Below are positions 16,342-57,600 of a stretch of 64,000 bases of DNA, in pieces. Under the pieces are notes generated by a model. The model searched no databases. It had not been told where the DNA came from and worked only from the letters and a program-made list of their open reading frames with translations. Within the stretch, counting starts at the first letter, position 1; every line of letters begins with the position of its first letter. The stretch comes from Bacteroidaceae bacterium (lineage in GTDB: Bacteria; Bacteroidota; Bacteroidia; Bacteroidales; Bacteroidaceae), in contig JAFRNY010000073.1 in the NCBI GenBank assembly GCA_017429945.1, forward strand, positions 1 to 64,000, written 5' to 3'. The position numbers and the translations under genes are program-made.

Positions 16342-16438
16342 TTTATAAACGATTTTTAAGTTTCGAAAGGTTTATTGCAATTTCATGTAAAAGTAAACAC
16401 GCCCCTAAAAAGCACTTACCACGATGGGACAGATCAGG

Positions 16439-16614
16439 GGATTCAACCGGTCGAACGGGCGGATTCAACCGGTCGCGTTGGCGGATTCAACCGGTTGCAT
16501 TTGAGGATTCAACCAGTCGCATTTGCGGATTCAACCGGTCGCATTTGCGGATTCAACCAGTCGCGTTGCTTAATCTGACCGGTCATACAGGCCTGCACGA
16601 CCAGTCGTATCAGT
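16439..16614 (+). repeat. 22-bp tandem repeat array A
   Basis: Six well-conserved 22-bp units begin at 16439, 16461, 16483, 16505, 16527 and 16549. Two decayed units follow at 16571 and 16593. The shared core is ATTCAACCGGTCGCATTTGC preceded by GG. The centre CCGGT/CCAGT alternates and GACCGGTC is palindromic. Units abut without spacers, so this is not a CRISPR. It lies about 240 bp upstream of the glgA promoter. Confidence 0.92.
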
Positions 16615-28120: not shown

Positions 28121-28237
28121 GACCCGCGGGAAAAACCGCGGGCACGGTAATCTTGATAAGACCCGCGGGAAAAACCGCGGGCACGGTAATCTTGATGAGA
28201 CCCGCGAGAGAAACCGCGGGCGCGGTAATCTTTAATT
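28121..28237 (-). repeat. Three tandem 39-bp repeats, each with a GC-rich hairpin
   Basis: Units at 28121-28159, 28160-28198 and 28199-28237. Units 1 and 2 differ by one base and unit 3 is more diverged. Each contains a 7-bp perfect stem CCCGCGG/CCGCGGG (unit 3 weakened) around a short A-rich loop, followed by CACGGTAATCTTGAT. Unit 3 overlaps the stop codon of the LptF/G gene, and unit 1 ends 18 bp before the helicase ATG. Confidence 0.9.
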
Positions 28238-33256: not shown

Positions 33257-33448
33257 TCAAGTTTCGCTTATTATGGAAGTTAAAGAAGTTAAAGAAGTTA
33301 AGGAAGTTAAAGACGATAGATTCGGGTATTGTTTTCAACTGGAAACGGTTGCTCGGCTAAGGTATCGTCTTTAACTTCCGTGGCCAGAGGCCACATAACT
33401 TCTTTAACTTCTTTAACTTCCAAAGCAAGCGAAGCTTGCGAAACTTGA
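33257..33448. repeat. 192-bp nested hairpin element (MITE-like)
   Basis: The ends carry an 11-bp terminal inverted repeat (TCAAGTTTCGC at 33257-33267, GCGAAACTTGA at 33438-33448). Inside, 33275-33300 is a perfect 26-bp inverted match to 33396-33421, and 33302-33318 a perfect 17-bp match to 33363-33379. The arms are built of 9-bp units (GAAGTTAAA). The right arm has a 16-bp extra piece that is itself a hairpin (GTGGCC/GGCCAC), and GCAAGC-GAA-GCTTGC lies near the right end. No open frame; the loop is 33319-33362. Confidence 0.85.
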
Positions 33449-33484
33449 ATAAATGAAATACAAAGCAGCCTGAGCCCGTTGAAT

Positions 33485-33638
33485 TATGCGCCCTATCGTA
33501 TCGGCTTATGCGCCCTAATGTATCGGCCTATGCGCCCTATCGTATCGGCCTATGCGCCCTATCGTATCGGCCTATGCACCCTAATGTATCGGCCTATGCA
33601 CCCTAATGTATCGGCCTATTCAACCGGATACATTATGC
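33485..33638 (+). repeat. 22-bp tandem repeat array B
   Basis: Six 22-bp units start at 33485, 33507, 33529, 33551, 33573 and 33595, with core TATGCGCCCTATCGTATCGG. Variants alternate GCG/GCA and ATCG/AATG. The seventh unit (33617-33638) switches to ATTCAACCGGATACATTATGC, which is almost the unit of array A. No spacers. It lies about 105 bp upstream of the next promoter. Confidence 0.92.
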
Positions 33639-33743
33639 GATGCGACATGAACCCTAATCGTACACAGGACCTATAAATGAGAAAATAATCAGGCTCGAGA
33701 GACGATTTTGAATGAAAAAGTGCTGAAATAAAGATATTTTCAA

Positions 33744-53854: not shown

Positions 53855-54577
53855 TCACTCGTCATCTGGCTTGAGTGTGTCGAGGTCTATGATGTGGAGC
53901 TGTAAGGCTTTCACTACGAGGCGTGTAGCATTCACGCCCGTCCGCTCGTTCGACGGGAAAAGGCGGTTGATGAGGTCCACCTGCCGCTTCTCGAGGCTCT
54001 TGGCTCCGAAGGGCATTCCCTTGAGCGAGGCTATCATATCCTTCGTGTAGCCCAGGGCCAGATGACGCAGGAATCGCTCATCGTATTCGTCTATATCATA
54101 GTCGATTACGGCATCCGAGCGGCGACTCTCACTGACAACACTCTTTTTGAAACGGGCCACGATCTTCTCGAGAATAGGCTGATTGAACACCAGGCGCCGG
54201 CCGTCCATGACGAGGCGAACGTCGTTGCGCGTCAGCAGCTCGCCGGTCTTCAGAATGATGCCATCGGTGCCGGCCTGCAAGGCATCAACCCACAGCCGCT
54301 CATTCAATATCTCGCCGGTGAAAATCAGAATCTTCACGTCGGGATAGTTGCTGTGCACTTGTCGGCAAATATCTACGCCCACGGTGGTGCTGCCGCCCAG
54401 ACCCAGGTCGAGCAGGAGGAGGTCGGGCCGTTGCTGGCGCATTAGTTTCCACAGTTCGCTCTCATTCATCGCCGTGCCGAGGATCTCGGCTTCAGGGATG
54501 TCAGAACGGAATATTTCCTCGGTGCCTTTCAGCTCGAGTTTCTCGTCTTCTACGATAATCACTTTAAACGGTTCCAT
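53855..54577 (-). CDS. Response regulator
   Basis: 240 residues. The receiver domain (1-125) has the phosphoryl-accepting Asp57 in DLLLLDLGLGG, the acidic pair E10-D11 in VEDEK and the conserved Thr/Lys (FTGE, ILKTGE). The C-terminal half (about 160-230) looks helical with a diverged LuxR-like helix-turn-helix (FLRHLALGYTKDMIASLKGM). It is the cognate partner of the sensor kinase immediately upstream (55-bp gap). Confidence 0.85.
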   Translation of the reverse strand: MEPFKVIIVEDEKLELKGTEEIFRSDIPEAEILGTAMNESELWKLMRQQRPDLLLLDLGLGGSTTVGVDICRQVHSNYPDVKILIFTGEILNERLWVDALQAGTDGIILKTGELLTRNDVRLVMDGRRLVFNQPILEKIVARFKKSVVSESRRSDAVIDYDIDEYDERFLRHLALGYTKDMIASLKGMPFGAKSLEKRQVDLINRLFPSNERTGVNATRLVVKALQLHIIDLDTLKPDDE

Positions 54578-54632: not shown

Positions 54633-57600
54633 TCAAGCCTTGGTCAAAGGGATTGTGAACCAAATCGAATGCCCTTTGTCAGCCGCTTCGGCGTTGATTC
54701 GGCAGCCGGGATGCCCCATGAAAGTGTCATGCTCGCGAATGATTTGCTTCGCAATCAGGAATGGAATGCCCTGTGGATGAGGCGTAAACAGTCCGTGCAG
54801 TTGATCTGTCGAGAGCTCATGGTTGGGGTTGCTGATAGTGATGCGTGCAAAATTGCCGTCGATAGTGGCTTCCAGCTCCATAGGCAGCCACTCCCCCACT
54901 CCTTTACCGCTGTTGGCCAGGAAGTCGGTCTCGGCATCGAGCAAGGCGTTGAGGAGCATCAGCAGCAAATCGTTGTCGCCGCGTAGTCGCCTGTCGGAAA
55001 GCAGATTGCCGGTTTTTAGTTCAATGTTTACTCCAAGGCGACGGGTGCGATTAGCAAAGCGCGAGGCGGCCGGTCTGCAAATATCGTCGAAGGCAATACT
55101 ACTGCGGCGGAAGTTCAGCGCCTCAGACTGATGCAAAGCCTGCGACATAAGCAGTGAGTAGATCTCTTTGTAGTAACCGACAGTCTCGTTGAGCGTGGTG
55201 AGGTCGGCTTCAGGGGCTCCGGACGTCGCCATTCGGTTGACGAGCTGGTTTATCCTGCCGGGATAGTACATCGTCTCATGCTTTATCGTGGAGAGACAGT
55301 TGTCGATTATCTGATTCTGGACGTGCAGGCGGCTCTCTTCGTAGAGGCGGCGGCGGTGCTCATCCTCGGCCATCTCCACATCGGCCTGCTGACGCTCGAT
55401 ATCGGCACTCTGCTGCTGTTGCATCTGCTGCAAGCGTTCGTCGTTGAGACGTGCTACGGCGCGTGCGAATCGTGCCTGCGGCAGGAAATAGAAGAAATAG
55501 GCGGCCAAAGCGGCCAGGACAAACAAGGCTATGATGGCAGCAAGTGCCCAACGGGCCGTCAGCTGCGAACGTTCGAGCTGCTGGCAGTAGGCTTCGAGCG
55601 ATTCATCGCGGTTTACGAGCTTATAGAGGCGCGTATATACCTCATTACTACGGCGATAAAGGGCCCAGTCGTGCATGGCAAGCGCAGCCACGGCCTGCTC
55701 GTTGCGCACGCCGAGCACGAGAGAATAGTCGAGAGAGTCGCGCCCATGGCCTATCAGCGCCAGGGCTTTTTCGGCAAAGTCAAGGGCCTCGGCATGGCGG
55801 CCCTCGAGGTTGCAGAAGTACAATGAGTCGGCCAAGGCATAGGCTTCAGCAGGGAACGAGAGGACGCTTTCAGAATCTGCAGATAGCGGTTTTGTTGTCG
55901 TACGGACAGGCTCTTTGGCATGACCAAACTGCGCCGACCAGACCTGTCCGGGCGTAACGGCAAAGGCCAAAGCCAGTAATATCAGACTGACGACTCGCGG
56001 CAGACGGAACCAGAAGCGACAGCCCTTCCCCAACACGCTGTCGATGCCAAAGCGGCAGACGCGGAAGAGCGGACTCGTCTTGCGGTATTTCTCTATGATG
56101 CCTTTGCAGTTCATCAGACCGAAGCCGTAACCCTTGCGGTCGTCATCGCTGATGCGACCGGTCGCATCGGCCTCTTCAACCGGTTGCATCGGCCTCTTCA
56201 ACCGGTCGAATTCGCCTGTGCGACCGGTTGTGTTTCCGATGACTGCTGCGTCATAGACTTTATTGTTGAGAATGAGGTCGATATCAGCAGCAGAGAGACC
56301 GCAGCCAGTGTCCTGCACCGACAGCTCGACATAGCGGCCATCGTCGTCCGAGCCCTCGGCGGCGCTGATGCTAACCGTGCCACCTTCGGGCGTGAACTTG
56401 CGTGCGTTGTCGGAGAGGGTGTTGAGCATGAAGAGCGTCAGTGCACGGTCGGCTTTCACGGAGAGCGTGGTCGGCTCAACGCAGAGCTTTAGTCCTTTCT
56501 GATCGTAAGCAAAATGATTGAGGCCCATGGCATCGAAGAGCGGTGCCAGTTCGAACGAAGAAATCTGCAGACTCAGCTGGCCCTGCTCCATCTTGATCCA
56601 CTCCGTCAGCAGGTCGTTGAGTTCGTTGATGCGCCCTGTGAGTTCGCTGATATATGCGAGCGACTCCTGTCGGACCTGCCCTCGCTGCCGCATGCGTCGC
56701 ACCTCATTTATGATTCGGTCGAGGAAGGGAACGATGCCTTGAACCAGCTGCAGCTTGGCACGCTTCTCAATATTCTTCTCCTTATCGGCCAGAAGGCGCA
56801 GTTCGGTAGCCTGCTGCTGCTCAAGCAGCTGCTCCTGCTCGTCGGCAAACGCCTGCTGACTGTGCAGGGCAGCCTCTTTCACCTGCTGCATCTTCTGGCG
56901 CAACAGACGTCGCTGAGCACGTGTGCGCCTGCGCCAGCGTCGGAGCAAGCCGAAGAGGAACAGGCTGATAACGACGGCCGTAGCGATAGCACCGGCAATA
57001 AGGCGATGGAGATACGAACGTTCGTTGGAGAGCTCCACGGCGCGGCTTTCGAGCTCGGCATCCTCGCGCGTCACGTCGAGCAGATCGAGGAATATATTGC
57101 GGTTGTAGTCGCTCTCAGCTTTCATGTCGAGAGCACTATAGGCCACCGAGAGTTGCTGACGGATGCCCGAAATCCACTCCGGCACGGTCTTCACCACGGA
57201 CGAGCTCACCCATTGGCGCTCCACCGACACGGGATCGGGCGTAGAATCGTAGAGCACGAGCACTCGGCTCTCAGAATCGGGCGCGACAAGTTCGTCGGAG
57301 GCGTAGTAACACTGGTGGTGGAAGTTCACGCAGTCGAGGGCTGCGCTGTAGTAGTCTATGGCTTTTAGATAGTTGCCGGCATCGAAGCTGAGCTCACCCA
57401 GAGTGCGGAGCGCGCAGGCTTCCTGATAGAGGTCGTCGTAGCCGATAAACTCGTTCAGCGCAGCTTCTGCCAGTTTCTCGGGCAGGCTGTCGGATGGGAA
57501 AATCGACGATAGTAGGGTCTGCGCCTCTGGGAAAGCCTCGAGGGCTGCCGTGCGACGAAGCGAGTCGGCCAACAGCGTGGCCAGCGACTGCTCGGAGTTA

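Follow-up and report, generated by a model that had tools for sequence, protein, structure and literature searches.

The locus studied here raises the question of how a short palindromic DNA repeat, which belongs to a mostly intergenic family, came to lie inside the ATP-binding domain of a signalling enzyme, and how long it has been there. The window, which is the whole stretch of 64,000 nucleotides that was analysed, belongs to a Bacteroidaceae genome (G000; 2.96 Mb, 92 contigs, 82% complete) and harbors a gene for a sensor kinase-like protein adjoined by a response regulator gene (Table 1). The repeat was found in the HATPase_c domain of the kinase, between the motifs DTGCGL (residues 675-680) and GYGFGL (residues 735-740), which we take to be the G1 and G2 boxes enclosing the ATP lid. 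An earlier note on this DNA had described an in-frame 22-bp tandem repeat with CAACCGGT cores at this site, and both the repeat and its position were confirmed. The window contains nine copies of CAACCGGT where 1.07 would be expected (0/100 shuffles as high), and members of this family also make up intergenic arrays at 16439-16564 and, with a different centre, at 33485-33619, which agrees with the proposal that the lid repeat is a DNA-level member of a mostly intergenic family. However, the earlier count of three units (66 bp, 22 codons) has to be corrected: four units were found, and the lid measured 68 aa with the array compared with 40 aa in many array-free relatives, giving an extra length of 28 codons (84 bp). 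Since 22 is not a multiple of three, the units in the lid are read in successive frames, which identifies the array as a DNA repeat rather than a protein repeat, and the reading frame of the lid survives when the copy number changes by three units (66 bp) at a time.

Table 1. Positions of the kinase locus, its lid array and the intergenic 22-bp arrays in the window
Feature	Position	Strand	Remarks
Intergenic array, ACCGGT family	16422..16587	.	6-8 units depending on caller
Intergenic 22-bp array, centre CCCTAT	33466..33647	.	About 7 units; outer ATRCG...CGYAT motif as in the ACCGGT family
Response regulator, adjoins kinase	53855..54577	-	Response_reg + DUF5932 (domain matches)
Sensor kinase-like protein, 1233 aa	54633..58334	-	DUF5112, DUF5113, HATPase_c (636-780)
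ATP-lid segment DTGCGL...GYGFGLMN, 68 codons	56109..56312	-	Used in cross-species alignment
Four 22-bp dyad-symmetric units, in frame in kinase	56151..56238	.	Encode approximately residues 700-728
ACCGGT cores of lid array	56157-56162, 56179-56184, 56201-56206, 56223-56228		

Apart from the domains listed in Table 1, a match of the kinase to DUF6377 was weak and below its cut-off, and an NCBIfam search with the kinase returned only kinase-domain models, all below their cut-offs. The best-matching named relatives of the kinase came from rumen Bacteroidaceae/Prevotellaceae assemblies. The ATP-binding boxes lie in the first half of the protein, and the second half contains a histidine that is invariant in 11 aligned proteins (H1019, IKHETMYY). 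Moreover, in the motif FLDRIIHEV the kinase of the window has Asn where the consensus of the 11 rows has His, and an alignment of 28 rows had no majority at this position.

The lid was then compared across species. From 101 kinase loci, 65 distinct lids were obtained, 31 loci having no fit to the lid pattern and five being duplicates; L040 was omitted because it is the same locus as L173. The length of these 65 lids ranged from 29 to 74 aa, in keeping with the earlier description of the ATP lid as a length-tolerant loop. Nine lids were long, namely eight of 68 aa and one of 74 aa (L176), and the remaining 56 measured 29-56 aa; the genomes of the nine were metagenome assemblies wherever a title was shown. 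A lag of 22 ranked top in eight of the long lids and was tied in the ninth, L041, and only one short lid (L060) had this lag on top, weakly (0.50). In two of the nine long lids the 22-bp periodicity was weak. The eight lids of 68 aa could be aligned gap-free, and their unit sequences mostly differed. Over the insert, their lag-22 identity was 0.40-0.71 and exceeded that of all other tested lags in seven of the eight, the remaining one being L041 (0.40 at lag 22, 0.43 at the best lag). Only three units were clear in several long lids, and three were clear by eye in L176, so that in these species the figure of four units is partly read from the length. The ACCGGT unit in the lid was common to G000 and G077 only. 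Identity between species was 23-76% in the insert versus 61-94% in the flanks, and the closest pair (L041/L175) differed at 23/96 bases and 13/32 residues in the insert versus 6/108 bases and 1/36 residues in the flanks. Across species, the residues and codons of the lid are thus poorly kept, whereas its length and phase are kept.

These comparisons bear on the age of the insert, which had been attributed to a recent invasion or expansion. Long 22-bp-periodic lids were found at the same site in nine species of one clade, eight of them with identical length, and a recent single invasion of the lid is ruled out by the site being common to the nine species. The insertion itself is therefore not recent; it is the unit sequence that looks recent, ACCGGT units having been detected, among the genomes searched, only in G000, G077 and, with two weak matches, G049. 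The expectation that copy numbers would always be multiples of three did not hold either, as the insert has four-unit length in eight species. Furthermore, the earlier note had weighed its reading against orthologs that keep the lid residues with unrelated codons; the long-lid orthologs instead have different residues, and these are mostly encoded by other 22-bp repeats. When a tree of the 65 kinases was built with the lid insert left out, the array label had to change at least four times, always within one strongly supported clade of 21 rows; these changes may represent four gains or one gain followed by several losses, so that a single gain is not established. The equal length and equal phase of the lids favour common descent, short of proof.

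Intergenic arrays were compared in two related genomes. In stretches of G077 that had been chosen for their arrays, two intergenic arrays of G000 were matched by an array in the same position, and the unit sequences were different. For approximately ten array positions of G000, a flanking gene could be located in the DNA sampled from G016; nine of them were without an array within 700 bp, and in the tenth (L090) an array lay 683 bp from the gene, in a comparison that rests on one flanking gene rather than on two-sided synteny and in which the sampled stretch sometimes ends there. Together, these two comparisons suggest that the kinase array has probably outlasted most of the intergenic arrays that could be compared.

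The distribution of the ACCGGT family was then followed through G000 and other genomes. A 32-base pattern with at most three mismatches gave 107 matches in G000 (62 forward and 45 reverse, some places being counted on both strands because the motif is partly palindromic), and the reversed control gave none. Among 61 genomes (G000 and 60 congeners), matches were obtained only in G000 and, weakly, in G049 (2). Six further genomes, reached via named loci, were searched with a slightly looser pattern, and the sole matching genome was G077 (Reindeer_1_mag_5; 93 matches, control 0), which is the sister of G000 in the kinase tree. In 41 stretches of G000, the window included, a core caller detected 223 units in 43 chains (2-9 units each), with the consensus ATDCRACCGGTYGHAT followed by a 6-bp spacer that was often GGCC-like. 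The similarity of units was 0.70 within an array versus 0.59 between arrays, and a switch of unit type in mid-array with the 22-bp register intact was seen in L104 and in L287 of G077. According to a first classification of 42 G000 arrays, eight lay inside an ORF, and two of these ORFs were real genes, namely the kinase and cobB; the other six, of 95-170 aa, were judged spurious by length, and the two that were checked against Pfam had no match. With regard to a MITE, a discrete element marked by terminal inverted repeats and a target duplication, flanking segments of the G000 arrays (86 segments of 400 bp) shared stretches between loci in 11 cases, the longest being 77 bp. An Rfam search of four array loci returned only a tRNA, and one array compared with phages gave no match.

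The second coding site, cobB, encodes cobyrinic acid a,c-diamide synthase (PRK01077 and TIGR00379 above cut-off), and in G000 a four-unit array lies in the linker joining its two domains. Eight of the 14 CobB loci tried gave a linker, and no linker match was obtained for G019, G049, G082, G002, G011 and G018. The CobB proteins of G000, G080 and G081 each had a linker segment of 69 aa, encoded with three different 22-bp units in one phase, and the linker of G010 was longer (84 aa) and showed 22-bp periodicity (0.67). Linkers without an array were found in G077 (64 aa) and in G003, G078 and G016 (66 aa); of the six loci without a linker match, two were read nevertheless, that of G002 being without 22-bp periodicity and that of G011 showing it weakly (0.60 over 30 bases) in a linker of 25 residues. 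When the three arrays were averaged, the dyad centres 165, 110, 132, 99, 143 and 121 were six of the seven best, the seventh being 169, with pairing of 0.52-0.78 at the cobB centres and a median of 0.26. The outer unit centres fell on codon boundaries in both the kinase and cobB, an agreement with a chance of approximately 1/3. In G080 and G081, the unit type differed between the kinase and cobB, which indicated that no single motif rules either genome; the idea that each species has one motif throughout its genome holds for G000 and G077 and fails for G018, G080 and G081. In L127, the cobB linker of G010, a long inverted repeat CATCAGGTCGCACAGCCT...AGGCTGTGCGACCTGATG was also observed within the coding linker.

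The dyad symmetry of the lid arrays was analysed in the eight species with 68-aa lids. The best dyad centres of the eight-species mean were columns 51, 73, 95, 62 and 84, which were the top five of 181 and recur every 11 bp, with pairing of 0.60-0.65 versus a background of approximately 0.25. The centre of the fourth unit (column 117) was weak at 0.47, and some conserved flank columns reached 0.50-0.56. When the two ACCGGT species were removed, the same five centres were still among the best six. For four hairpins placed on the unit centres, 27/32 pairs changed on both sides between species and 71% of the cells paired; the covariation score, in which sequences and not events are counted, was 0.526 versus 0.224 for shuffled (0/500 as high) and 0.085-0.177 for slid controls. 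A long hairpin spanning the array also covaried (26/36 pairs, score 0.443). Moreover, when the coding-strand RNA was folded, the z-scores of the nine long lids lay between -2.8 and -8.3 and those of three short lids between -0.2 and -1.6. Half-sites of the 223 units in the G000 family, however, did not covary, R/Y positions pairing at 0.49, as by chance; outer positions paired below expectation (z -5.3, -4.3 and -3.7), and pairing in first and last or mirror units was no better than in other units. These results speak against selection for unit hairpins within G000, which was rejected on this ground. It follows that a small number of swaps, each exchanging one palindromic unit type as a whole for another, may underlie the covariation between species, rather than many compensations.

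The genomic context of the arrays was determined by ORF calling in 40 stretches of G000. Among 38 array gaps, 18 were convergent, 16 co-directional and 4 divergent, compared with 68, 206 and 90 among 364 baseline gaps, 348 of which come from genomes other than G000 (Fisher, convergent excess p 2e-4; divergent 0.07). Arrays of G000 thus favour gene 3' ends over divergent promoters. The convergent excess was absent in the set comprising the window, G016, G003, P. koreensis and 80 kinase loci (7/28, p 0.45). A-runs preceded 12/43 arrays and T-runs followed 10/43, versus an intergenic background of 12% (p 0.005 and 0.03). The period itself extends beyond G000. Among the 9-kb kinase loci taken from 62 further Prevotellaceae/Bacteroidaceae genomes (564 kb), 22 was the commonest lag with 18 arrays, and other lags from 14 to 44 had at most 6 arrays each, except the multiple 44 (12). 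The array clade, represented by 18 loci, had seven lag-22 arrays, five of them being the lids themselves. P. koreensis had five lag-22 arrays in 160 kb, four of them with a GGGCGA-type unit, and no array was found in the 31.6 kb sampled of G010. Four genomes of other Bacteroidales families had one short array in 200 kb, two tiny contigs of G039 being excluded; all these samples are small, and the outgroup count is no more than indicative.

In this study, we consider it fairly probable that the lid array is an old REP/BIME-like 22-bp palindromic repeat that is tolerated in protein loops, held in frame by three-unit steps and overwritten by homogenisation. A palindromic tandem repeat would have entered a permissive loop of the kinase long ago, in an ancestor of the array clade, by one gain with several later losses or by a few gains at one site. 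The frame would have permitted only three-unit steps and thereby held the length of the lid, and slippage, template switching or conversion may have replaced the letters of the units, drawing on the array itself as well as on the dominant family of the genome. If this overwriting proceeded in register, the 22-bp period and the dyad would survive as the codons turn over, and the encoded loop would be a tolerated passenger. Regarding a cellular role of the repeat, we infer that the intergenic copies of G000 may serve as 3'-end or bidirectional terminator-like elements. More tentatively, Prevotellaceae/Bacteroidaceae could possess satellite-like 22-bp palindromic arrays whose period, dyad phase and sometimes position persist, the units being replaced in register genome by genome and, inside genes, the codons of an otherwise conserved protein being rewritten. 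If so, it would be a DNA repeat process rather than protein selection that sets how a loop reads in each of two enzymes, one for signalling and one for cobalamin synthesis, and the frame would be the sole visible constraint on those loops.

Several other explanations were weighed against this one. Several independent insertions into this permissive lid, each of an array copy four units long, would also produce a kinase tree on which the label changes at least four times; in G000 and G077 the lid units are of the host's own family, and four units form the smallest frame-preserving array beyond one unit. We regard this explanation as unlikely, given that total length and dyad phase are identical in eight species and that the lid motif of G018 occurs only once elsewhere in that genome, with three mismatches, which is as often as the reversed control. 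An equally unlikely explanation is that the arrays are transcribed hairpins, either tandem bidirectional terminators or mRNA-stabilising 3' structures, in which base pairing is selected, the kinase mRNA included. The convergent gaps and the excess of A- and T-runs at array ends in G000, the folding z-scores and the covariation between species are consistent with it, but half-sites do not covary within the G000 family, a T-run is absent from most arrays and from the kinase array, and a terminator within a coding region would be harmful. The terminator reading was set aside; about a quarter of the arrays carry an A- or T-run at any one end.

Independence of the half-sites is also expected of a site bound by a dimer, and for this reason a binding-site reading was kept as a rival. 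The units would be sites of a homodimeric DNA-binding protein spaced two helical turns apart, the motif would follow the turnover of the specificity of that protein, and coding sites in permissive loops would join the network. Such a protein would account for the symmetric degenerate consensus with independently varying half-sites, the fixed 22-bp spacing, the one dominant motif throughout G000 and G077 and the GGGCGA-type units in 4/5 P. koreensis arrays. It would not account for the different motifs at different loci of G018, G080 and G081, nor for the preference of G000 arrays for gene 3' ends rather than divergent promoters, and we think it rather doubtful. That the lid is simply a hypervariable protein loop in which the DNA repeats by coincidence fits the variation of lid length in the kinase family and is hardly credible otherwise: no amino-acid repeat explains an array with a period of 22 bp, which is not a multiple of three, and this explanation is contradicted by the genome-wide family with the same letters in G000, the ungapped register of the lids and the conserved dyad centres and phase.

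The old, tolerated and homogenised repeat proposed here can be compared with known systems. Rickettsia palindromic elements (RPEs) are in-frame palindromic repeats found at tolerated places in unrelated proteins and are longer single elements. The 22-bp arrays resemble them in lying in frame in unrelated genes (kinase lid and CobB linker), but they consist of tandem units, and their sequence is replaced while the position stays. REPs tagged with GTAG or CGTC are short palindromes in high copy number that lie mostly between convergent or unidirectional ORFs and in some cases inside genes (PMC3733652). REP/BIME units measure 20-40 bp, and the 22-bp arrays are like them in unit size, palindromy and the large number of intergenic copies. 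Moreover, 34/38 array gaps of G000 are convergent or co-directional, the convergent excess being absent in the other sets. The arrays differ from REP/BIME in their exact head-to-tail period, variable unit sequence and a coding site kept in several species. GTAG/CTAC was found anywhere in only 8/223 and CGTC/GACG in 20/223 G000 units, and with regard to a linked RAYT, a Y1 transposase flanked by the repeat, the one Y1_Tnp match in G000 (82% complete) lies in a 3348-bp locus without an ACCGGT-type core or 22-bp array. With the tag and the RAYT link both looked for and not found, the 22-bp repeat was not filed as a REP. The arrays also differ from CRISPR in that the units are contiguous, with similar 6-bp spacers instead of unique ones. 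In the mitochondria of Nematomorpha, coding palindromes occur in which both arms encode conserved residues (PMC6649704); these are likewise inverted repeats within functional coding sequence, whereas the residues encoded by the kinase and cobB arrays turn over. Template switching can create and keep hairpins with seemingly compensatory changes (PMC8794818); the system described is that of RNA genes, and by likeness it is a candidate mechanism for the 22-bp dyads. In the literature on Prevotella/Bacteroidales that was searched, no description of 22-bp palindromic arrays was found, which would make this a repeat system of rumen and oral bacteria without a description in that literature.

Several additional repeats were observed in the same DNA. 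In L254-L280 of G077, many ACCGGT arrays lay inside a dispersed element of 0.75-0.9 kb, the copies of which were mostly 85-95% identical and which has a large hairpin CCAATAGTTT...AAACTATTGG, and several ACCGGT matches of G077 lay less than 400 bases from a contig start. Another 22-bp type, its centres resembling AACCCTTAAG/AAGACTTT, occurred in G000 (L090:4658 and L110:2289), G077 (L287 and L290) and G019 (L085:14366). Arrays of 11-bp units such as GGGGAGTTAAA, half of the 22-bp period, were present in G000 at L107:3983-4079, L116:345-465 and L295:210-411. In the window, a 39-bp tandem repeat of 2.9 copies with 94% matches and a CCGCGG palindrome occupied positions 28121-28232. Furthermore, beside the 22-bp array with the CCCTAT centre, positions 33276-33420 contained 9-bp repeats GAAGTTAAA, followed approximately 85 bp later by inverted copies TAACTTCTT.
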